Below, in pieces: positions 8,979-46,212 of a DNA stretch of 49,780 nucleotides. Source of the DNA: Candidatus Gastranaerophilales bacterium (lineage in GTDB: Bacteria > Cyanobacteriota > Vampirovibrionia > Gastranaerophilales > Gastranaerophilaceae); assembly GCA_947625345.1 (NCBI GenBank), contig CANQNX010000005.1, forward strand, positions 1-49,780, given 5' to 3'. The notes beneath the pieces were generated by a model. That model was not told where the DNA came from. It searched no databases and saw nothing but the letters and a program-made list of their open reading frames with translations. Each line of letters opens with the position of its first letter. Positions within the stretch are counted from its first letter, which is position 1. Both the position numbers and the translations under genes were made by a program.

Positions 8979-9087
8979 ATATCTCCAACGAAGTTATATC
9001 CTTATTGTTTATTTTAAATATTTTAAAGAAACAACACATCAATCAAACGGTTTATTAAATCATCTAAACCTTTAGATTAATTTTTTC

Positions 9088-28678: not shown

Positions 28679-31600
28679 TTATACCTTGAGTAAAGAGTTA
28701 TCTCTGTATTTTTCAATACTGTCATAAGTAAAGTTTTTTTCTTCCATATAGCATTTCAAAGCTTCTATATATGCTTTAGCCGTATCTAAGACAGTAAAAC
28801 AAGGAGTTGAATACATTTCAGCGATTGTCCTTATTAAGAAACCTCTGTCCTCCGAACCGTATCTGTATGGATTTGAATTTGTTGAAGGCGTATTTATAAT
28901 AAAACACAATTCCTTATTTTTCATATTTCTTTGAATCTTTTTAATATCAAATTTCTCAATTTCTTTTGACTCAATACCGTATTGTTTCAAATATTTATGA
29001 GTTCCTGTTGTTGCAACAAGATTATAACCTAAGTCAACCAAGTCTTTAGCAACACTTACAGAATCTTTCTTATAATGGTCATTAATTGAAATTAAAACAT
29101 TTCCTCTTTCATTTGACAGCTTATAACCTGCAGCTAAAAATCCTTTAGCTATAGCTCTTTCAAATGATGTATCAATACCTAAAACTTCGCCCGTAGATTT
29201 CATTTCGGGAGCAAGCGCAGGATCTATTCTGTTTAACTTTTGGAATGAAAAGATAGGAACTTTTGCACAAACAAGATTTGATGTTTTAACAAGTCCCGGT
29301 GTATATCCTTGTTCCGTTATTGATTTTCCTAATATTGCATCTATTGCTATTTTTACCATTGGAGTATTTGTTACTTTACTTAAAATGGGTACTGTTCTTG
29401 AGGCTCTCGGATTAACTTCTATAATATATGCCACATTATCTTTAAGAACAAATTGTATATTCATTAAACCTTTAACTTTAAGAGCTTTAGCTATTTTTTC
29501 CGTATATGAAATTAAATTATTTATAATTTCATTTGGAATTGTTCTTGTAGGATAGAGTGCAATCGAATCACCCGAGTGAATACCTGCTCTTTCAATGTGT
29601 TCGGTTATTGCAGGGATTAAAACATTCTCACCGTCAGATACGGCATCAAGTTCAAGCTCGGTACCTTCTATATATTGATCTATTAATATAGGATGTTCAT
29701 CAGAAAACTTCATTGCTCCGTCAATGTATGAAATAAGTTCTTCTTTATTATAAACAACCTGCATACCTCTTCCGCCGATAACATATGAAGGTCTTACCAA
29801 CAACGGATAACCTAATTTTTTAGCAACATCAAGTGCTTCAGAATGTTTCTTGATTGCAAACCCTTTAGGTTGCGGAATTTTTAAATCTCTTAAAAGCTGT
29901 TCAAATAATTTTCTGTCTTCCGCTATATTTATTGATTCCAATGAAGTACCCAATATCTTAACACCCTTTTGAGCTAATTTCGGAGCAAGATTAATGGCTG
30001 TTTGTCCGCCGAATTGTACCATTACTCCTTCAGGATTTTCTTTTTCTATTATGTTCATTATATTTTCTATGTTCATTGGTTCAAAAAACAGTTTATCAGC
30101 CACATCAAAGTCGGTTGAAAGTGTTTCGGGATTTGAATTAACAATTAATGATTGATAATTATTATTTCTAACCTCCCAAGCAGCATGAACTGAACAATAA
30201 TCAAACTCAATACCCTGCCCGATTCTAATCGGTCCCGAACCTAAAATTAATATCTTTTTAACATCTTTATCAGGTTCCAACTCATCTTTTTCGTTGTATG
30301 TCGAATAATAATATGGTGTGTATGCTTTAAATTCTGCGGCGCAGGTATCTACAATCTTAAATGAAGCACTTACTGCATTTTCTTTTCTGAATTTTTCCAC
30401 TTCATCAATTGTAATTTGTGCATACTTAGCAATTTCTTCATCTAAAAATCCTTTTTCCTTTGCTTCCATATATAATTCAGGTGTCAGATGTTCAAATTTT
30501 AATTTATTTTCAGTATCAATAATGGATTTAATTTTATAAATAAACCATTTATCTATTTTTGTTATTTTATTAATTTCATCCACACTTACAGAACGGTTAA
30601 GGGCTTCTGCAACTCTGAAAATCCTTCTGTCATCCTGAACATGAAGAAGTGCTTTTAATTCATCTTCACTGCATTCCGTATGCAATCCTCTTAACAAACC
30701 TGTATACTTTGACTCAATTGAAGCAATAGCTTTTTTAAATGAACTTTCAAAAGTTCTGCCTATCGCCATAACTTCACCCGTAGCTTTCATTTTAGTTCCT
30801 AAAATTCTGTCTCCGTGTTTAAATTTATCAAAAGGCCATTTAGGTATTTTTGTTACAACATAATCAAGTGCAGGTTCAAAAGCCGCTACTGTCTTTTTTG
30901 TTATTGAGTTCGGTATTTCATGTAAATTGTATCCGATGGCAATTTTGGTTGTAATTTTTGCGATAGGATATCCCGTTGCTTTTGATGCTAATGCTGATGA
31001 CCTGCTGACTCTGGGATTGACTTCAATTACGTAATATTGATTACTTACCGTATCAAGTGCAAATTGAACATTACATCCGCCTTCAATTTTTAAGGCTTTA
31101 ATAATTTTAATTGCAGCACTTCTTAACATTTGACATTCTTTATTTGTAAGCGTTTGCGTAGGTGCTACAACAAAGCTGTCACCGGTATGTATACCTATAG
31201 GGTCTATATTTTCCATATTACATATGGCAATACAGGTATTATTTGCATCTCTTATAACTTCATACTCTATTTCTTTATATCCGGCTATACTTTTTTCAAC
31301 CAAGACTTGAGATATAGGGCTTAATGAGAGTCCCGTATAAACTATTTCTTCATATTCTGACCAATTTGTCGCAATACCACCTCCGGTACCTCCTAATGTA
31401 TATGCTGGTCTGACTATTATAGGAAATCCTATTTTTTGTGCAAACTTTGAAGCATCTTCAAAACTTGATACTATATCACTTTCAGGGATAGGTTCATTTA
31501 TTTCAAGCATAAGGTTTTTAAACATTTCCCTGTCTTCCGCTTTTTTTATGGATTCTATTTTAGTACCTAAAAGTTCAACGTTATATTTGTCCAAAATGCC

Positions 31601-31915
31601 GTTTTCATATAGGCTTACAGCTAAATTTAATCCCGTTTGTCCGCCTAATGTTGCTATTATACCGTTGGGTCTTTCCTTATCAATTATGTATATTAATGAT
31701 TCAAGAGTCAAAGGTTCTATATATACTTTATCGGCTATATTTTCATCAGTCATAATCGTTGCAGGATTTGAATTTACTAATATTACTTCAATATTTTCTT
31801 CTCTCAAAGCTCTGCAAGCTTGTACTCCGGCATAATCAAATTCCGCCGCCTGACCTATAACTATTGGTCCCGAACCTATTACTAAAACTTTTTTTATATC
31901 TTTATTTATCGGCAT
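28679..31915 (-). CDS. carB: Carbamoyl-phosphate synthase large subunit CarB
   Basis: 1078 aa, normal length. It contains the duplicated ATP-grasp halves: KKVLVIGSGPIVIGQAAEFD at the start and KKILILGSGPIRIGQGIEFD in the second half, each followed by NSNPATIMTDENIADKVYIE or its counterpart. Further motifs are RPAYTLGGTGGGIA, RPSYVIGGRGMQVVY, EVNPRVSRSSALASKATGYP and EVNPRASRTVPILSKVTNTP, and a C-terminal MGS-like allosteric domain (ISINDHYKKDSVSVAKDLVD onward). It makes carbamoyl phosphate with the glutaminase supplied by the fused CarA upstream. AAGGAAAG precedes the ATG, 15 bases after the pyrF-carA gene. Confidence 0.97.
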   Translation of the reverse strand: MPINKDIKKVLVIGSGPIVIGQAAEFDYAGVQACRALREENIEVILVNSNPATIMTDENIADKVYIEPLTLESLIYIIDKERPNGIIATLGGQTGLNLAVSLYENGILDKYNVELLGTKIESIKKAEDREMFKNLMLEINEPIPESDIVSSFEDASKFAQKIGFPIIVRPAYTLGGTGGGIATNWSEYEEIVYTGLSLSPISQVLVEKSIAGYKEIEYEVIRDANNTCIAICNMENIDPIGIHTGDSFVVAPTQTLTNKECQMLRSAAIKIIKALKIEGGCNVQFALDTVSNQYYVIEVNPRVSRSSALASKATGYPIAKITTKIAIGYNLHEIPNSITKKTVAAFEPALDYVVTKIPKWPFDKFKHGDRILGTKMKATGEVMAIGRTFESSFKKAIASIESKYTGLLRGLHTECSEDELKALLHVQDDRRIFRVAEALNRSVSVDEINKITKIDKWFIYKIKSIIDTENKLKFEHLTPELYMEAKEKGFLDEEIAKYAQITIDEVEKFRKENAVSASFKIVDTCAAEFKAYTPYYYSTYNEKDELEPDKDVKKILILGSGPIRIGQGIEFDYCSVHAAWEVRNNNYQSLIVNSNPETLSTDFDVADKLFFEPMNIENIMNIIEKENPEGVMVQFGGQTAINLAPKLAQKGVKILGTSLESINIAEDRKLFEQLLRDLKIPQPKGFAIKKHSEALDVAKKLGYPLLVRPSYVIGGRGMQVVYNKEELISYIDGAMKFSDEHPILIDQYIEGTELELDAVSDGENVLIPAITEHIERAGIHSGDSIALYPTRTIPNEIINNLISYTEKIAKALKVKGLMNIQFVLKDNVAYIIEVNPRASRTVPILSKVTNTPMVKIAIDAILGKSITEQGYTPGLVKTSNLVCAKVPIFSFQKLNRIDPALAPEMKSTGEVLGIDTSFERAIAKGFLAAGYKLSNERGNVLISINDHYKKDSVSVAKDLVDLGYNLVATTGTHKYLKQYGIESKEIEKFDIKKIQRNMKNKELCFIINTPSTNSNPYRYGSEDRGFLIRTIAEMYSTPCFTVLDTAKAYIEALKCYMEEKNFTYDSIEKYRDNSLLKV

Positions 31916-31930: not shown

Positions 31931-33772
31931 TTATACGTTTACTAAATTTGAGGATTCTTCAATTTCTTTAACCCAATCCGTAATTATTTTATAAGAGTCA
32001 TAAGGTCCTACAGTCAATTCGGGATGGAATTGTACTGTTTTAATTTTATATTTATCACACTCTATTCCCTCTATAGTTTTGTCATTAAGATTAATATATG
32101 TCGCTTCAACACCCTCAGGTAAAGATTCCGCCTTTACCGCATAACTGTGATTTTGAGAGGTAACAAATATTTCACCTGTTTTTGTACACATTACGGGATG
32201 ATTTCCGCCTCTGTGCCCGTACTTTAATTTATACGTTTGAGCACCTAATGCGAGTGATATAATTTGATGTCCCAAACAAATACCATATAATCTTATTTTC
32301 CCTTTAAGATCTTTTACTGTTTGTATTGCGCACAGAGCATCTTCAGGATTCCCCGGCCCGTTTGATATTAATAAAGCATCAAAATTACCTTCTAATATTT
32401 CCTCTGCCTTTGTATCTGCAGGGAATAGCGTTATTGCACAATTTAAAGCTTTAAAATTTTCAAAAATACTCTTTTTTATTCCCATATCAAGGATTGCAAG
32501 TTTTATACCGTTTCCTTGAAATTTTTCAATTTTATATGTTGTTATATCCAAAGTAACATTTTTACCTATTTTGTACTCTTTAATTTGCTGTTTTATTTGG
32601 GGAGTTATTTCATTTGTAGTTATTGCACAATTCATAGCTCCGTAATTTCTTATAATTTGTGTTAAATACCTTGTATCAACACCTTTTATTCCGACAATAT
32701 TATTTTGTTTCAGATATTCACCTAAAGATAACGAACTTTTATAGTGAGATTCGTGTTCGCATAAATTTTTTATTACAAAACCTTTAGCATGAATTTTACC
32801 TGATTCATAATCATCTTTATTTATCCCGTAATTTCCGATTTCAGGATAGGTCATAACAATTGTTTGTCCCATATAAGAAGGATCTGTCAAAACTTCCTGA
32901 TAACCTACCATTGAGGTATTAAACACGATTTCTCCTATTGAAGTTCCTTCAGCTCCTATGGATTCACCTTCAAATATCATACCGTTTTCAAGTATTAACT
33001 TAGCTTTATTTGAAGATACGTAAGATTTATTTTGAGTCAAAAGCGCATTTTCAATTTCTTCATATATCATTTTAATTGCTTTAACTCTGTCATCAGCACT
33101 TGTAACAGCTCTGCCGATGACAAGAAAATCAGCACCTTCTTTTATTGCAACACTCGGTGTTGCCAATCTTTTTTGGTCATTTTTATTTGACCAATCAGGT
33201 CTTATTCCGGGACACAATACTTTAAAATCTTTACCGCATACTTGTTTTATCTTTTTTGCTTCCCAAACACTTGCTACAACACCGTCTAATCCCGCTCTTT
33301 TTGCCATTAATGCCAAATTCAGAGCATAATCTTGAGGCTTAAACGGAATTTTTAATTCATTTTGCAGACAATCTTCACTTATACTTGTTAAAACGGTAAC
33401 ACCCAATATGGTAGGATTTTCTCTGTTCAATTCTTTTGCTGTCTTTCTCGCTGCTTCCTGCGCCATTTTCATCATTTCTTCTCCGCCCGTTGTGTGAAGA
33501 TTAAAAAATGATGCTCCGTTTCTTATTATATTTTCGGATGCTTTTGCAACAGTATTCGGTATATCATGAAGCTTTACGTCAAAAAAGAACTTAATATTCT
33601 GTTCTTTCATAAAATTAAATATTTCATATCCGTTTGACGTATACATTTGAAGTCCGACTTTAAATACGCCTACATAATCTTTTAACTCGGTTATTAAAGA
33701 CTTTGCCTGTTCTATCGTATCTACGTCTAAGGCTAATACTATTTTTTCTTTTATTTCAGGTCTTATTTGCAT
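31931..33772 (-). CDS. pyrF-carA: Fusion of orotidine-5'-phosphate decarboxylase (PyrF) and carbamoyl-phosphate synthase small subunit (CarA)
   Basis: 613 aa in one uninterrupted frame. Residues 1-242 are PyrF: ALDVDTIEQAK, KVGLQMYTSNG, the catalytic FDVKLHDIPNT (D65, K67, D70), ILGVTVLTS, LCPGIRPDW and ADFLVIGRAVTSADD. A short linker (about 243-255) follows. Residues 256-613 are CarA: AKLILENGMIFEGESIGAEG, FNTSMVGYQEVLTDPSY, GVDTRYLTQIIRNYGAM, SNGPGNPED, the glutaminase LYGICLGHQIISLALG (Cys499), HRGGNHPV, TSQNHSYAV and VQFHPELTVGP (His583, Glu585). Every catalytic residue I can check is present, so both activities should work. The fusion joins the first and last steps of UMP synthesis in one chain. 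It lies 5 bases after pyrC and 15 before carB. Confidence 0.95.
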   Translation of the reverse strand: MQIRPEIKEKIVLALDVDTIEQAKSLITELKDYVGVFKVGLQMYTSNGYEIFNFMKEQNIKFFFDVKLHDIPNTVAKASENIIRNGASFFNLHTTGGEEMMKMAQEAARKTAKELNRENPTILGVTVLTSISEDCLQNELKIPFKPQDYALNLALMAKRAGLDGVVASVWEAKKIKQVCGKDFKVLCPGIRPDWSNKNDQKRLATPSVAIKEGADFLVIGRAVTSADDRVKAIKMIYEEIENALLTQNKSYVSSNKAKLILENGMIFEGESIGAEGTSIGEIVFNTSMVGYQEVLTDPSYMGQTIVMTYPEIGNYGINKDDYESGKIHAKGFVIKNLCEHESHYKSSLSLGEYLKQNNIVGIKGVDTRYLTQIIRNYGAMNCAITTNEITPQIKQQIKEYKIGKNVTLDITTYKIEKFQGNGIKLAILDMGIKKSIFENFKALNCAITLFPADTKAEEILEGNFDALLISNGPGNPEDALCAIQTVKDLKGKIRLYGICLGHQIISLALGAQTYKLKYGHRGGNHPVMCTKTGEIFVTSQNHSYAVKAESLPEGVEATYINLNDKTIEGIECDKYKIKTVQFHPELTVGPYDSYKIITDWVKEIEESSNLVNV

Positions 33773-33777
33773 ATTAT

Positions 33778-35052
33778 TTATCCTATTTTATATATTTTCC
33801 CTTTTATTATTGTCATTTTTACTCTGCCTTTTAACTTATATCCGTCAAAAGGAGAGATTTTACACTTAGATTTAAACTTAGAAGCATCCGCAATCCATTC
33901 TTCGTTTAAATCGATTACGGTTAAATTGGCTTCATTGCCAATAGAAATACATCCTTGATTCTTAAGATTTAATATTTTCATAGGAGCACTCGTATATTTT
34001 TTTATTGCCTCCATTAAACTCAATTTTCCGCTATGTACCAAATAAGTGAGCGTTACCCCCAAAGAAGTTTCAAACCCTGCCATTCCCATCGGGGCAATTT
34101 GTATGGGAGATTGTTTCTCGCTTATGGTATGAGGCGCATGATCAGTTGCTATTACATCTATAGTTCCGTCTTTTAAGCCGTTTATAACTGCTTCAACATC
34201 TTCTTTTGTTCTTAATGGCGGATTTACTTTGTATTTTGCATCATAATCTTTTATATCATCTTCCGACAAACTGAAATAATGAGGAGCAGTTTCAGCCGTA
34301 ACATTCAAACCTTCTTTTTTAGCCTGTCTTATAAGTTCAACCGAACGTTTTGTTGAGATATGCGCAAAATGATATTTACCTTTTACGCTTCTTACTACCT
34401 CTAATTCACGAGCTACCGCCAAGGATTCCGTTATATCCGCAATTCCTTTTAATCCCATTTGTGCGGAAACTTTTCCTTCATTGATTACTCCGCCTTCGGA
34501 TAAAGTAGAATCTTCACTGTGAGAAATAATAAGAGAATTTTGCGAATTTATATACTTTAATGCCTCTCGCAATATTTTCATATTCTCAATGGGTTTACCG
34601 TCATTTGAAAAAGCAACAGCTCCACTATCAAGCAATTCCGATACATTAACTGTTTTTTCACTTCCAAGTCCCTTAGTAACGGCACATATAGGATAAAAAC
34701 CTATGTCAGAAACCTCTTTTGCTCGATATAAAAGATATTGCAGCGTAACAACATTATCCGTAACGGGATTAGTATTCGGCATAGGACATATTGCGGTATA
34801 ACCGCCGTTAATAGCCGATTCAATACCTGTTTTTACGGTTTCTTTTGAACTAAATCCCGGTTCTCTTAAATGACAATGCATATCTATCAAACCGGGAGTT
34901 ACCGTAAGACCTGTTAAATCTATTACTTCTTCATTGTTCTCAGGTTTAATATCAGGTTCAAATTTAACTATTATACCATTTTCTATTCTTATATCAGATA
35001 TTTTTTCATAATTTGTTTGAGGATTAACGACTTTTGCATTTTTAAGAAGCAT
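33778..35052 (-). CDS. pyrC: Dihydroorotase PyrC
   Basis: 424-aa zinc amidohydrolase that closes carbamoyl-aspartate to dihydroorotate. Motifs: VTPGLIDMHCHLREPGFSSK with the HxH metal ligands, CPMPNTNPVTDN, ISHSEDSTLSEGGVINEGKV, YHFAHISTKRSVELIRQAKK, VTAETAPHYFSLSEDD, KVNPPLRTKEDVEA and VIATDHAPHTISEK with the catalytic Asp. The length and motifs are those of the class I enzyme found in operons with pyrB. Its start overlaps the last base of pyrB, giving translational coupling. Confidence 0.96.
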   Translation of the reverse strand: MLLKNAKVVNPQTNYEKISDIRIENGIIVKFEPDIKPENNEEVIDLTGLTVTPGLIDMHCHLREPGFSSKETVKTGIESAINGGYTAICPMPNTNPVTDNVVTLQYLLYRAKEVSDIGFYPICAVTKGLGSEKTVNVSELLDSGAVAFSNDGKPIENMKILREALKYINSQNSLIISHSEDSTLSEGGVINEGKVSAQMGLKGIADITESLAVARELEVVRSVKGKYHFAHISTKRSVELIRQAKKEGLNVTAETAPHYFSLSEDDIKDYDAKYKVNPPLRTKEDVEAVINGLKDGTIDVIATDHAPHTISEKQSPIQIAPMGMAGFETSLGVTLTYLVHSGKLSLMEAIKKYTSAPMKILNLKNQGCISIGNEANLTVIDLNEEWIADASKFKSKCKISPFDGYKLKGRVKMTIIKGKIYKIG

Positions 35053-35966
35053 TATCTATTGCCTCCTTTACTTAACAACATATCTAAAATAGCCATTCTG
35101 ACATATACCCCGTTTTGAGCTTGTTCCAATATCGTTTTACCCATATCATTATCTAAAAGCTCCGAGGATATTTCCATATTTCTGTTTACGGGCCCGGGAT
35201 GCATTAATATAACATTTTTTGAGGCATACTCTTTTATAATGTTTGTATCAAGTTCATATAATCTTTTATACTCAATAGAATCAGGATATCCTTCTTTTTC
35301 AAGACGTTCATTTTGAACTCTCAATACCATAATTACATCAGCATCTTTTATTCCTTCTTTTAAATCCTTATGATATTTAACTTTAAACGAATCATAATTT
35401 TCAAATTCCATATAAGAAGGTGATACAACATGTAAATCTGCTCCAAATTCGGATAAAAGCATTATATTTGATTTTGCAACTCTGCTATGCCTTATATCAC
35501 CTACGATTACTATTTTTTTATTTTCAACGGTATTAATTTTTTCAAGCATAGTATAGAAATCCAACAACGCCTGAGAAGGATGTGCATGGGTTCCGTCCCC
35601 TCCGTTTATGAATTTTATCGGATATTTTACCAGTTTCAAAACATTGTTTATGATACCGGACAATGAATGTCTGATTACAACTGCATCCACACCTAAAAAA
35701 TACAAATTTTCAACAGTATCCTTAAAACTCTCACCTTTTGAAATTGAAGAGTGTTCGGCATCAAAATTTATAACATTCATGCCCGATTTTTTAGCAGCCA
35801 TTTCAAAACTGCAACGGGTACGGGTAGAATTTTCATAAAACATCAAAGATAGAGTTTTGCCTTGGACTTGAGATTTTCTCGTTCCTGTTTTAAACTCTTT
35901 TGCTATTTTTATGATATTTAAAATATCTTCTTTTGAAATACTTTTAATATCAATCAGATGTTCCAT
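35052..35966 (-). CDS. pyrB: Aspartate carbamoyltransferase catalytic subunit PyrB
   Basis: 304-aa transferase that joins carbamoyl phosphate and aspartate. Motifs: LMFYENSTRTRCSFEMAAKK (the STRTR carbamoyl-phosphate loop), VIRHSLSGI, INGGDGTHAHPSQALLDFYT, KIVIVGDIRHSRVAKSNIML, DVIMVLRVQNER and LMHPGPVNRNMEI. No pyrI regulatory subunit is present here, as in most bacteria with this operon layout. It overlaps pyrC and pyrE by one base each. Confidence 0.97.
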   Translation of the reverse strand: MEHLIDIKSISKEDILNIIKIAKEFKTGTRKSQVQGKTLSLMFYENSTRTRCSFEMAAKKSGMNVINFDAEHSSISKGESFKDTVENLYFLGVDAVVIRHSLSGIINNVLKLVKYPIKFINGGDGTHAHPSQALLDFYTMLEKINTVENKKIVIVGDIRHSRVAKSNIMLLSEFGADLHVVSPSYMEFENYDSFKVKYHKDLKEGIKDADVIMVLRVQNERLEKEGYPDSIEYKRLYELDTNIIKEYASKNVILMHPGPVNRNMEISSELLDNDMGKTILEQAQNGVYVRMAILDMLLSKGGNR

Positions 35967-36541
35967 TATGCTTTTACCTTATCTTCTCTGCTTCCGGGTT
36001 TAACCAAAGGAATACCTTCCCTGCACAAAGGGCAGTTATCAGGCTCATAAACAACAGGGTCAATCTGCATAAGTGATTTTATATTATATTCAGTTTTACC
36101 CTTTGTTCTGTCTACAATACAACCAACCGCAACAACTTCAGGCTCATATTCCTTAATTGCTTCCATTGTTTCCTTTATTGTTCTCGCTGTTGTTATAACA
36201 TCTTCAATGATAACGACTCTTTCCCCCTTTTTAAGAGTATAACCTCTTCTTAATTGCATTACACCGTCTTTTCTTTCAACAAAGAGGTTACGTTTTTTAG
36301 CATTTTTTGCCGTTTCATATCCTATAATTACCGCACCGATTGCAGGAGCTACTATAGTATCAAATTCAACATCAGATAATTTTTCAGCCAACTTTTTCCC
36401 TAATTTTTCAGTTATATCGGGATATTGGTACAGTTTAGCACATTGAAAATATATATCCGAATGCAAGCCTGAAGTCAGACAAAAATGTCCGTGCAAAACA
36501 CCTTCAGCTTTTTCCAATAAATTTAAAACATCTTCGCTCAT
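35966..36541 (-). CDS. pyrE: Orotate phosphoribosyltransferase PyrE
   Basis: 191-aa enzyme that forms OMP from orotate and PRPP. Visible: GHFCLTSGLHSDIYFQCAKL, VAPAIGAVIIGYETA, LFVERKDGVMQLRRGYTLKK and the PRPP loop GERVVIIEDVITTARTIKET. The C-terminal extension carries CPLCREGIPLVKPGSR, a feature of the longer PyrE subtype. Coupled to pyrB by a one-base overlap and 2 bases downstream of pyrD. Confidence 0.96.
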   Translation of the reverse strand: MSEDVLNLLEKAEGVLHGHFCLTSGLHSDIYFQCAKLYQYPDITEKLGKKLAEKLSDVEFDTIVAPAIGAVIIGYETAKNAKKRNLFVERKDGVMQLRRGYTLKKGERVVIIEDVITTARTIKETMEAIKEYEPEVVAVGCIVDRTKGKTEYNIKSLMQIDPVVYEPDNCPLCREGIPLVKPGSREDKVKA

Positions 36542-36543
36542 TA

Positions 36544-37470
36544 TTATTTCCTCAATTCTTTCTTTAATTCTTCCAAATTTTCAAATCCGTTATTTTTTAT
36601 GTAATTTTCAAGTTCAATTACCAAATTTTGAGTTATATCGGGATGAGTAAAATTAGCGGTACCGATTTGTACAGCCTCAGCCCCTGCCGCTAAAAACTCC
36701 AAAACATCACTTAAACTTTCAATACCGCCTATACCTATTATCGGAATATCAACCGTTTTATACAGACGCATAACAGCTCCTATTGCAACGGGTTTTATAC
36801 CTACTCCCGAATATCCGCCCTGTATAATACTTTTTTGAATCTTGCCGTTTAAACAATTAATTTTTATTGCAGTCCCTTTTAACGTATTTATGGCACTTAT
36901 TGCATTCGCACCCGCATTTTGGGCGGCCATTCCCAATTTTTCTACGGATGTCACATTGGGAGTTAATTTTACAATCAAAAACCCTTTATATTCTTTTCTT
37001 ACTTCAGAAACAAGTTCATATAAAGAATTCTCATCCGTACCGAATTCAAGACACCCTGATTTAACATTAGGACAAGAAACATTTAGTTCTATTGCTTTTA
37101 TTTCGTTTGTATTGCATATTTTCCCCAATATTTTGTATTCATCTATGGTTGAACCTGCAATGTTTACAACAAAATCTATATTATTTTCTTTTAAAACGGG
37201 AATTTTTGTTTCGAGAAACTTTTCAATCCCGACATTTTCAAGACCTATAGAATTAATCATGCCTGCTTTTGTTTCAGTTATACGAATATTTTTATTACCG
37301 GCTCTCGGATTCAGAGAAATGGCTTTCGTAACAATTGCCCCCAACTTAGCAACATCAATAAATTCATTATATTCATCCGAATATCCGAATGTTCCGGATG
37401 CAGTCATAATCGGGTTTTTAAGAATCAACCCGTTTAAATCAGTCGTTAAAATATTTGTCATTACTGCCAT
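36544..37470 (-). CDS. pyrD: Dihydroorotate dehydrogenase, class 1B catalytic subunit PyrD
   Basis: 308-aa FMN enzyme that oxidises dihydroorotate; the class 1B form works with PyrK and passes electrons to NAD. Visible: LKNPIMTASGTFGYSDEYNE, AIVTKAISLNPRAGNKNIRI, ITETKAGMINSIGLENVGIE, KAIELNVSCPNVKSGCLEFG with the active-site Cys, VKLTPNVTS, QGGYSGVGIKPVAIGAVMRL, PIIGIGGIESLSDVLEFLAA and AVQIGTAN. The ATG at 37470 has GAGG four bases before it and overlaps pyrK by 10 bases. A second ATG at 37461 is less well placed. Confidence 0.96.
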   Translation of the reverse strand: MAVMTNILTTDLNGLILKNPIMTASGTFGYSDEYNEFIDVAKLGAIVTKAISLNPRAGNKNIRITETKAGMINSIGLENVGIEKFLETKIPVLKENNIDFVVNIAGSTIDEYKILGKICNTNEIKAIELNVSCPNVKSGCLEFGTDENSLYELVSEVRKEYKGFLIVKLTPNVTSVEKLGMAAQNAGANAISAINTLKGTAIKINCLNGKIQKSIIQGGYSGVGIKPVAIGAVMRLYKTVDIPIIGIGGIESLSDVLEFLAAGAEAVQIGTANFTHPDITQNLVIELENYIKNNGFENLEELKKELRK

Positions 37471-38222
37471 ACGACCTCACTTCCCAAAAATACGGGGCCG
37501 TCTTTACATACGGATGCATTAATAACTTTATTATCTTTTTTAATATCTATAACACAGCCACGACATACACCTATTGAGCATGCCATAACTTTTTCCATTG
37601 CAACCTGACATTCAACGGAATACTTTAATGCAGTATTTGCAACAGTTTTTAATACTATATAAGGTCCGCAAACATATATTATTTCGGGATTATAAGTATT
37701 AATCAGAACACCTAAATAGTTTAAAATACTGCCTGATTCTCCATATGAGCCGTCGTCCGTATAAATTTTATCAGGAGTTATTACGCTCGGGATTTCATCT
37801 TTATTTAAAAATCCTGCGGCAAAAAGACTTTCTATATTTAATTCGTCCGTCTTTGATTTTAAAAATGCCATCGGTGCAGCTCCTATCCCTGCACCTATAA
37901 TGAGAGATTTCTTGTTTTTTATATCAAACCCGTTGCCTAAAGGGCCGATAATATCAATTAAATCTCCGCTTTTTAATGATTTAATATAATTTGTTCCTTC
38001 TCCCCGTTCTTTAAACAAAACTCCTATTTCATTATCTTTGGAACTGAACACACTAAAAGGACGTCTTAAAGTTAAACCTTTACAATATATTGAAATAAAT
38101 TGACCTGCTTTTACTTCAACAGCTTGAGGCAATTCAATTTTAATTAAATATGCAGATATTGATACTTTTTCTACATTTTTAACTTTTGCCTTATATATTT
38201 TTTTAACTTTATCTTTTATCAT
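37461..38222 (-). CDS. pyrK: Dihydroorotate dehydrogenase electron-transfer subunit PyrK
   Basis: 253 aa. The FAD-binding ferredoxin-reductase-like domain (LPQAVEVKAGQFISIYCKGL, TLRRPFSVFS, VLFKERGEGTNYIKSL, DIIGPLGNGFDIKNKKSLII, GAGIGAAPMAFL) is followed by a [2Fe-2S] site with Cys in CSIGVCRGCVIDI and ASVCKDGPVF. It links the PyrD subunit to NAD. It is the first protein-coding gene of the pyrimidine operon apart from the leader peptide. AAGGAAA precedes the ATG, and the attenuator-like terminator ends about 20 bases upstream. Confidence 0.95.
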   Translation of the reverse strand: MIKDKVKKIYKAKVKNVEKVSISAYLIKIELPQAVEVKAGQFISIYCKGLTLRRPFSVFSSKDNEIGVLFKERGEGTNYIKSLKSGDLIDIIGPLGNGFDIKNKKSLIIGAGIGAAPMAFLKSKTDELNIESLFAAGFLNKDEIPSVITPDKIYTDDGSYGESGSILNYLGVLINTYNPEIIYVCGPYIVLKTVANTALKYSVECQVAMEKVMACSIGVCRGCVIDIKKDNKVINASVCKDGPVFLGSEVVWQ

Positions 38223-38241
38223 TAAAATTTCCTTGTTTTAT

Positions 38242-38276
38242 AAAAAATGAGAAAAGCAGAAATGCTTTTCTCATTT
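38242..38276 (-). terminator. Attenuator terminator in the pyr operon leader
   Basis: Perfect 14-bp inverted repeat AAATGAGAAAAGCA (38245-38258) and TGCTTTTCTCATTT (38263-38276) with a 4-base loop. On the minus strand it ends in six T (38247-38242), 19 bases before the pyrK ATG. It lies between promoter and first gene, so it must be regulated or it would silence the operon. Confidence 0.85.
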
Positions 38277-38313
38277 ACAAAATATATTCATCTTTTATCA
38301 AATTGTACTTCAT
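38275..38313 (-). CDS. Putative 12-residue pyr leader peptide
   Basis: In the leader RNA an ATG (38313-38311) follows AAGGGA (38324-38319) at a 5-base spacing and opens a 12-codon frame, MKYNLIKDEYIL, ending in a TAA at 38277-38275. The stop overlaps the base of the terminator stem by two bases. A ribosome at the stop would cover the stem, as in the E. coli pyrBI leader. The predicted transcript start lies just upstream of the ribosome site. Confidence 0.6.
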   Translation of the reverse strand: MKYNLIKDEYIL

Positions 38314-38334
38314 GACTTTCCCTTACTTTCATGT

Positions 38335-38363
38335 ATTATGGAACCAAGGCAAATTAAAGTCAA
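38335..38363 (-). promoter_or_regulatory. Sigma-70 promoter of the pyr operon
   Basis: On the minus strand TTGACT (38363-38358), a 17-base spacer (38357-38341) and CATAAT (38340-38335). The start site would fall near 38328, giving a leader of about 105 bases with the leader peptide and terminator. It is one of the best promoter matches in the window. Confidence 0.75.
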
Positions 38364-38483: not shown

Positions 38484-38903
38484 ATGTTTTCACACGGGGA
38501 AATAACAAAAGATTTATCACGGGGTAAAAAATTTTTTGAAGATATTTTATCATTTACCGTAGGTCCTTTTACTCTTGATGAAATAATTGAAAACAGAATT
38601 AATACAATAAATATTGTTGATGTCAGAGAATATAATGACTATATAGAAGGTCATATACCTTATGCGGTTCATATTCCGTATAAAGAAGCAAAAGAACATA
38701 TTGAAATGCTTGATAAAAGTAAAGTAACAGTCATTTATACATATTCTGATTCATGCCCGAGAGCATATAAAACAGCACTTGAATTAATAGAAAAACATTA
38801 TCCGAGTGTAATATTAAGAGGCGGATTTAAAGAATGGAAAAAATTCGAATTTGACATAACAAAATCAGATTCCGAAGATTATAAAGAGTCTGACGAAAAT
38901 TAA
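38484..38903 (+). CDS. Rhodanese-domain protein with atypical active-site loop
   Basis: 139 aa with a single rhodanese fold: INIVDVREYNDYIEGHIPYA, VHIPYKEAKEH, VIYTYSDSCPRAYKTALELI and VILRGGFKEWKKF. In active sulfurtransferases the strand after 'VIY' normally leads straight to the catalytic Cys; here that place is Thr, and a Cys appears five residues later (SDSCPRA). It may use that second Cys or act only in binding. No signal peptide; acidic C-terminal tail. AAGGA seven bases before the ATG supports the start. It stands alone, divergent from the pyr operon and followed by a terminator-like hairpin. Confidence 0.75.
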   Translation: MFSHGEITKDLSRGKKFFEDILSFTVGPFTLDEIIENRINTINIVDVREYNDYIEGHIPYAVHIPYKEAKEHIEMLDKSKVTVIYTYSDSCPRAYKTALELIEKHYPSVILRGGFKEWKKFEFDITKSDSEDYKESDEN

Positions 38904-44541: not shown

Positions 44542-46212
44542 TTACAACAAATCATTATCCGAAGCCTTTAAGGGAACACCCATTAATTTTTCGAGATTTG
44601 CAGCATAAACATGATAATTTAACAGATTATTATAATAATCAAGCTGAGAATTTCTGTAGGTAGTTTCGGCATCTTTTAACTCAATGGCATCACCCAAGCC
44701 CACTTTATATCTGCCTGAAGCCTGATCATACTGTTCTTTTGCCTGATCCATGGATAATTTGGCGACTCCTATACTTTCTTTTGCAGTAGTTAAGTTTAAA
44801 TATGCCTGTTTTACCTCAAAATATATATTTTGTTTTGTATTTTCATAATCGGCTAAATCTTTTTTATACGTTGCCTTTGCTTCATCAACCTGTTTCTTTA
44901 AAGACATCAAATTAACTGTTTGATAATTTAATTGAGCACCTATTTGATAACCATGATCCGTATCAACCTTTTTACCGCCTCTTGTATATGAAGCAAAACC
45001 CGATATATTAGGAGTAAATGCCCTTCTTGATGCACGAACCAAAAGTTCAGACGCATCCGCTTTCTTTTTTGCCGCCAATAATTCGGGGCTTGTATCGTAT
45101 GCAGTATTGACAGCATCATCAGCATTTATGTCATAAGCTTTTGTTGTTAAATTATCCGTTACATCATAATCGGTGTAATCAGGCATGCCCATTGCATTGC
45201 TTAATTGTACATATGCGATTTTCAATGTATTTTTTGCCTGAAGCAGATTTAATTTAGCCCTTCCCAAATTATGTTCGGCTGTTAATACATCTATTTTTGC
45301 CTTTGTACCGATATCATAATATGCTTTTGCCTGTTCTAAGTGAAGTGTATAATCCTTTACGGTATCTTCATAAACTTTTACCTGCTGTTGAGCAAAAAGT
45401 AAATTGTAATATGCCTGTTTTACGGTAAATACGACAGTATTTATCGCTGTTTCAAGATTATATTTTGCCGATTCATAGGTTCTTTTTGCTAAATCCGCCT
45501 GAGCTTTTGTTTTCCCAAAATCGAACAACAGCATATTGCCTGATACTGTCGGAGTATAAAACATATCATAAATTTGAGTAGGAAATGCAAAGTTTGACAT
45601 CTGCATATCATTTCTTGAATAACTTACTCCTGCCGAAAAAGTCGGGAAATAATTTGCCCAAGCCTGTGCTATTTTACTTTTATATATCTCCGCATTACTC
45701 ATTGCAGACTTAATTGCGGGATGATGTTCAAGCGCAATTTTAACGCATTCATCAACTTCTATAATTTTGTTTGTTTCAATACTGCCTTGATAAGCCGTAT
45801 CTGTTAATACTTTTTCCGAATTTCCTTCAGAAACGGCAGGAATTTCTTTTTGTTCAGTTTGTTTTTTCTTTCCTTGTGTTTTTTGTTTTTTTGTGAGTTT
45901 TGCTTTTTTCTTTTGTTCTTTTTGAACTTTTTCTATTGTTTTTATTTCTTCAATATTAGGTTCTTCAGGCTTTATCTCTTCTGCTTGTTCATTCTTTATT
46001 TTCTTGTTTCTTACAAAGATATTTTTTAAGGACTTTTTACTTTTAGTTTTCTTTATTTCAACTGCATTTTGAGTTTGCTCTGTTGTTATTCTTGAAGGAA
46101 GTTCGTTTATTATCTGAGGAATAATAATTTCATCCCTTATTGCATTTTCGTCCTCCGCAAAAACAGGGCTTGCCATAACTAATAATATAAATAACAATAA
46201 TTTTTTATTCAT
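44542..46212 (-). CDS. tolC: TolC-family outer-membrane efflux protein with Lys-rich N-terminal insert
   Basis: 556 aa. Signal peptide MNKKLLLFILLVMASPVFAE, then two TolC repeats: CVKIALEHHPAIKSAMSNAE (about 155 on), FSAGVSYSRNDM, ANYFPTFSAG, LLFDFGKTKAQADLAKRTYE, VFTVKQAYYNLLFAQQQVKV, and in the second half ANISGF-like PNISGFASYTRGG, YFEVKQAYLNLTTAKESIGV and GRYKVGLGDAIELKDAETTY. It would form the trimeric outer-membrane channel of the RND pump encoded just upstream. Between signal peptide and channel lies an unusual ~110-residue stretch very rich in Lys, Glu and Gln (KKAKLTKKQKTQGKKKQTEQ). The ATG at 46212 gives a proper signal peptide; an ATG at 46281 inside the RND gene would place a basic extension before it. 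It follows the pump by 22 bases. Confidence 0.92.
   Translation of the reverse strand: MNKKLLLFILLVMASPVFAEDENAIRDEIIIPQIINELPSRITTEQTQNAVEIKKTKSKKSLKNIFVRNKKIKNEQAEEIKPEEPNIEEIKTIEKVQKEQKKKAKLTKKQKTQGKKKQTEQKEIPAVSEGNSEKVLTDTAYQGSIETNKIIEVDECVKIALEHHPAIKSAMSNAEIYKSKIAQAWANYFPTFSAGVSYSRNDMQMSNFAFPTQIYDMFYTPTVSGNMLLFDFGKTKAQADLAKRTYESAKYNLETAINTVVFTVKQAYYNLLFAQQQVKVYEDTVKDYTLHLEQAKAYYDIGTKAKIDVLTAEHNLGRAKLNLLQAKNTLKIAYVQLSNAMGMPDYTDYDVTDNLTTKAYDINADDAVNTAYDTSPELLAAKKKADASELLVRASRRAFTPNISGFASYTRGGKKVDTDHGYQIGAQLNYQTVNLMSLKKQVDEAKATYKKDLADYENTKQNIYFEVKQAYLNLTTAKESIGVAKLSMDQAKEQYDQASGRYKVGLGDAIELKDAETTYRNSQLDYYNNLLNYHVYAANLEKLMGVPLKASDNDLL

Follow-up and report, generated by a model that had tools for sequence, protein, structure and literature searches.

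To our knowledge, pyrBI-type attenuation of pyrimidine operons is known mainly from enterobacteria. At the rph-pyrE locus of Escherichia coli, ribosome and RNA polymerase are coupled in a uridine triphosphate (UTP)-sensitive manner before a terminator, and the translated frame is the full upstream gene. In the E. coli pyrL leader of pyrBI, high UTP results in fast transcription and termination, and low UTP results in pausing on the U-requiring template, coupling and read-through (PMC10135430). A leader peptide of Pseudomonas aeruginosa carA is cited in PMC4997734 as a possible case of pyrimidine attenuation. The main text of a 2010 survey of premature terminators mentions no pyrimidine or cyanobacterial cases (PMC2965389). 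The stretch of DNA analysed here (the window; 49,780 nucleotides (nt)) comes from a Candidatus Gastranaerophilales bacterium of the gut Melainabacteria and carries a pyr operon beginning with pyrK, and our literature search found no paper on the control of a pyr operon with this gene order. The leader of this operon is probably a minimal pyrBI-type translation-coupled transcription attenuator, in which a ribosome at the stop codon of a short leader frame would prevent termination in response to a signal that we take to be UTP. It would resemble E. coli pyrBI in that a leader frame before a pyrimidine operon brings the ribosome onto a terminator hairpin with neither an antiterminator nor a regulatory protein. 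However, the pyrL frame is 44 codons long and continues past its hairpin to 3 nt before pyrB, whereas the window frame has 12 codons, stops in the base of the stem and precedes pyrK, and the two leaders have no sequence likeness. In the window, U is concentrated in the 3' arm of the hairpin; in pyrL, the U-rich tract precedes the hairpin. As at rph-pyrE, ribosome and polymerase would be coupled before a terminator in a UTP-sensitive manner, but the window uses a dedicated short frame. Gram-positive PyrR attenuators also have a terminator in the pyr leader, whereas no PyrR protein over the cut-off is found in 28 genomes of the comparison and no PyrR-binding RNA in the leader. The P. aeruginosa carA leader, which belongs to a proteobacterial carA operon, is likened here by its cited description only.

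All elements of the leader lie on the minus strand. A promoter, TTGACT-17-CATAAT (38335–38363), matches 10 of 12 consensus positions by sequence reading and promoter scan, and it is retained within the genus as TTGACTTT...(G/C)ATAAT; since the scan gave 7 promoter-like sites against 7.2 in shuffled sequences, the promoter is unremarkable on its own. A ribosome site, AAGGGA (38319–38324), is placed 5 nt upstream of the leader start codon, and AAGG or AGGG is kept at this place in most of the genus. The leader frame MKYNLIKDEYIL (38275–38313) runs for 12 codons from the ATG at 38313 to the TAA at 38277–38275 and is retained in relatives. The AA of this stop codon forms the first two paired bases of a terminator hairpin (38245–38276) with a perfect 14-base-pair (bp) stem, AAATGAGAAAAGCA/TGCTTTTCTCATTT, identified from the sequence, the RNA fold (z -2.2) and relatives. 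Its 5' arm (38276–38263) is purine-rich, its loop is TTTC, its 3' arm (38258–38245) is pyrimidine-rich, and the T run past the 3' arm extends to 38242. The pyrK ribosome site AAGGA, recognised by sequence reading, follows at 38230–38234. Since only 22 nt separate the hairpin from pyrK, whose ATG is at 38222, transcripts from the leader promoter must pass the hairpin. The gene upstream of the leader (38484–38903, rhodanese domain) is divergent, which means that the hairpin does not terminate a preceding minus-strand gene. Thus every leader element named in the initial annotation, from the promoter to the pyrK ribosome site, is present in the sequence. A stock terminator scan found no terminator and missed this hairpin, presumably because part of the T run lies within the stem. 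An alternative 14-codon leader frame from the ATG at 38332 was rejected, having no ribosome site and not being retained in relatives.

Because 12-codon frames are common in A+T-rich DNA, a single leader proves little, and the fit of frame to hairpin in the window leader is equalled in about 21% of shuffles. The evidence that the layout exceeds chance therefore comes from a comparison across divergent leaders. Leaders were read at about 46 loci of near and more distant genomes, at 76 loci of genome contigs and at 40 loci in a further 14 genera of the family, the last partly overlapping the contig loci. For the counts, 75 automatically found leaders were reduced to 45 that are under 80% identical, and expectations were taken from dinucleotide shuffles. 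An ATG or GTG frame of 7–16 codons ends at the hairpin base in 42 of the 45 leaders, against 8.3 expected. When a ribosome site is also demanded, with 7–20 codons and a stop within 8–9 nt of the hairpin base, 29 leaders remain against 2.5 expected. The commonest stop position (21/45) is that of the window, where the stop codon contributes its final two bases to the stem. In the remaining three leaders (L075, L093, L101), start codon and frame are retained and the frame passes through the hairpin, which is also the arrangement of E. coli pyrL; the frame likewise reads into or through the hairpin in L077, L177 and genus g42. Across the whole series, the earliest stop codons lie 9 nt ahead of the stem and the latest lie past it. 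The initial annotation had proposed a comparison of related pyr leaders, in which loss of the frame with the hairpin kept would have spoken against coupling; both frame and stem are retained, no such loss is seen, and the other sampled genera agree.

The sequence of the leader peptide is not what is kept. Within the genus, differences by codon position number 220, 262 and 226, and the ratio of nonsynonymous to synonymous differences per site (pN/pS) is 0.76; conservation of the peptide was rejected on these figures. Between genera the peptides differ almost entirely (MKYNLIKDEYIL, MNLKTSKIKYIA, MNKKRIRIFEY, MIWKKFKKFNLYIK and MNFTDVFNKKFVYF). The stem stays paired among relatives through A-U/G-C exchanges at many positions; pairs were counted outward from the loop in hairpins that had been chosen by pairing, which inflates the paired share and leaves the variety of pairs unaffected. 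Retention of the frame while the peptide drifts suggests that translation itself is maintained. Selection thus appears to retain two things, translation as far as the hairpin and the hairpin itself.

These observations lead to a plausible sequence of events. RNA polymerase would leave the promoter and make the short leader, on which a ribosome would start translating the 12-codon frame. When UTP is plentiful, a fast polymerase would complete the terminator before the ribosome arrives, so that the hairpin would form and transcription would stop before pyrK. When UTP is scarce, the polymerase would be slow, and the ribosome would reach the stop codon first and mask most of the 5' arm, allowing the operon to be transcribed. 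The ribosome footprint extends 10 nt downstream of the A site (PMC4824070); with this value assumed, the 5' arm would have a median of 12 of its 14 bases masked once the stop codon occupies the A site. In E. coli, the ribosome represses almost completely a terminator placed a few bases past a stop codon, and such a terminator regains its activity when translation is abolished (PMC4824070). The elements, their order and their retention over 18 genera are seen in the sequences; termination at the hairpin, translation of the frame, UTP as the signal and slowing of the polymerase in the 3' arm and U tract are inferred. Most of the U-rich stretch of the leader falls in the terminator's 3' arm, outside the frame; this arm is 75% U and 91% pyrimidine, whereas the figures for 105 other terminators on these contigs are 48% and 66%. 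This makes the 3' arm, together with the U tract, a plausible UTP sensor. A bolder proposal, which we put forward tentatively and hold to be somewhat less probable than its contrary, is that this is a minimal UTP sensor of separate evolutionary origin whose terminator itself does the sensing: low UTP, and perhaps low cytidine triphosphate too, would slow the polymerase on the nearly all-pyrimidine 3' arm and the U tract at the very time when the 5' arm lies open to a ribosome close to the stop codon, so that a frame of 8–15 codons would serve as a timer and neither an upstream pause tract nor a specific peptide would be needed. Several points weigh against a pyrBI-type attenuator. The frame is A-rich (52% A, 32% U), so that the leader lacks the U-rich pausing stretch that pyrL has ahead of its hairpin. 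The stem is A/U-rich with 4 G-C pairs, and termination there is predicted. The leaders share common descent, with one change on the tree, and so the 45 cases and their U-rich arm are non-independent. Finally, the case for an attenuator is built from sequence throughout.

The most serious rival, which we consider improbable but worth keeping in view, is a translation-coupled terminator without UTP sensing, which would report general translation capacity such as ribosome supply or growth and would let the pyr operon be transcribed only under vigorous translation. Its anatomy would be identical, nothing in the layout names UTP, and the frame is not U-rich. However, the U-richness of the 3' arm relative to other terminators speaks against it, and so does the restriction of the leader to the pyrimidine operon. 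In the 1.11 Mb (69%) of the window's own genome that was covered, there are 168 intergenic terminator-like hairpins, 12 of which are possible leader terminators, and only the one at pyr touches a short frame; this restriction suits a pyrimidine signal. A terminator-like hairpin of this genome (L218, contig C38, minus strand near 9067), a possible leader terminator without a touching frame, lies 23 nt before a ribonucleotide reductase-like gene. Attenuation by an RNA-binding protein or a ligand-binding RNA, with the frame as a by-product of A+T-rich sequence, would agree with the use of 5' leader terminators by PyrR and riboswitches, but is very unlikely, since the frame occurs far above chance and the sequence upstream of the hairpin is not conserved across genera. 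In addition, the leader has no Rfam match, including to PyrR-binding RNA, and a PyrR protein over the cut-off is found in 0 of 28 genomes, compared with 6 of 14 controls; control by PyrR itself was rejected on these two grounds.

An amino-acid attenuator of the trp/his type, where a ribosome stalled at regulatory codons allows an antiterminator to fold, would also suit a short leader peptide before a terminator, and leaders of the genus do contain Tyr, Lys and Ile codons. However, the RNA fold of the window leader contains no competing fold or antiterminator, no run of codons is common to the genera, and the stop codon overlaps the stem, in contrast to amino-acid attenuators, whose leader frame and terminator are more than 20 bp apart (PMC4824070), so that we give this explanation hardly any weight. 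Many leader peptides weakly resemble K-[ILF]-[EKN]-Y, which would suit a nascent-chain sensor or a peptide that is a product in its own right; the even change over the three codon positions, the pN/pS value and the quite different peptides elsewhere make this highly improbable. Leader frames near a start codon may promote translation of the following gene by ribosome re-initiation (PMC4833913), and the frame could in principle boost pyrK in this way. Since the hairpin intervenes and the distance from hairpin to pyrK ranges from 2 to 367 nt, this explanation has been set aside as barely credible. The translation-coupled mode of action first suggested in the initial annotation is therefore well supported by the retention of frame and stop codon, its proposed slowing of the polymerase at low UTP is plausible, and its remark that neither a PyrR motif nor an antiterminator is visible agrees with the lack of a competing fold, an Rfam match or, in 28 genomes, a PyrR protein over the cut-off.

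A short frame and a terminator precede pyrK in three families (f1, f6 and f7; 18 genera) wherever the stretch before pyrK is readable, and the PyrK identity among leader-bearing genera goes down to about 47%. No frame-terminator leader is found in members of f2, f3 and f4. None is seen at 20 PyrK loci of four other families of the class, where pyrK is not the first gene in some cases and a leader elsewhere is possible. On a PyrK tree of 46 rows, the presence or absence of the leader maps to one change, on a branch with full support by the Shimodaira–Hasegawa-like approximate likelihood ratio test (SH-aLRT). The distribution is best explained by a single origin of the putative attenuator inside Gastranaerophilales, separate from enterobacterial pyrL. 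Descent from pyrL was rejected on the 12-codon length, the position before pyrK, and the one origin in this order with none in the sister families or in the other families of the class that were read; the likeness to pyrBI is one of way of working, not of descent. If the attenuator reading is correct, this would be a second, separate origin of pyrBI-type attenuation, in another phylum, retained in three families of bacteria from guts and the environment that are uncultured and whose gene control is little known, and it would imply close transcription-translation coupling in Melainabacteria. The roughly 45 divergent leaders with varied stop positions would then be a natural series for testing the ribosome-masking model.

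Across the order, 188 of 286 genomes have no PyrK match at an E-value of 1e-30, and PyrB likewise gives no match in any of the 12 near-complete PyrK-less genomes tested; the de novo route to pyrimidines seems to have been lost in many genera. Between the terminator and pyrK, several species of the genus carry a dispersed repeat that is about 112 nt long and has inverted ends (AAATTTTGCGTAGGG...GGAGCAAAATTTAAGACG), for example at L064, L068 and L070; it also occurs in the window's own genome (G000:C21:39-187), is often in tandem with locus-specific variants, and is absent between the terminator and pyrK in the window. A TTGTAA-type sequence is present about 20 nt upstream of the -35 box in the genus. 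In two other genera, the palindrome TTGTWACATWTNTTTACA gives 31 matches in five genomes against 7 in a reversed control. It is found upstream of pyrK in L244, L248, L250, L256 and L257 and elsewhere in L243, L251, L254 and L255. Several unrelated genes have it 81–108 nt ahead of them; at the pyr locus it precedes a divergent gene and reads away from pyrK. It is likely to be a regulator site; since it also precedes unrelated genes and is not pyr-specific, a conserved pyr operator of the TTGTAA type or TTGTWACATWTNTTTACA was rejected.

By domain search, the operon has the order pyrK-pyrD-pyrE-pyrB-pyrC-pyrF/carA-carB, all on the minus strand. It begins with pyrK, the electron-transfer subunit of dihydroorotate dehydrogenase B (37461–38222; PF10418, PF00970), followed by pyrD, dihydroorotate dehydrogenase (36544–37470; PF01180), pyrE, orotate phosphoribosyltransferase (35966–36541; PF00156 and operon position), pyrB, aspartate carbamoyltransferase (35052–35966; PF02729, PF00185), and pyrC, dihydroorotase (33778–35052; PF01979, PF12890). 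The next gene is a pyrF-carA fusion (31931–33772; PF00215, PF00988, PF00117), whose product is one protein of 613 amino acids joining orotidine 5'-monophosphate decarboxylase to the carbamoyl-phosphate synthase small chain and glutamine amidotransferase. The last gene is carB, the carbamoyl-phosphate synthase large chain (28679–31915; PF02786 and others). Elsewhere in the window, a 17-nt tandem repeat (TGTTTTTTGTTTTTTTG) is present in about 2.9 copies at 45860–45909.
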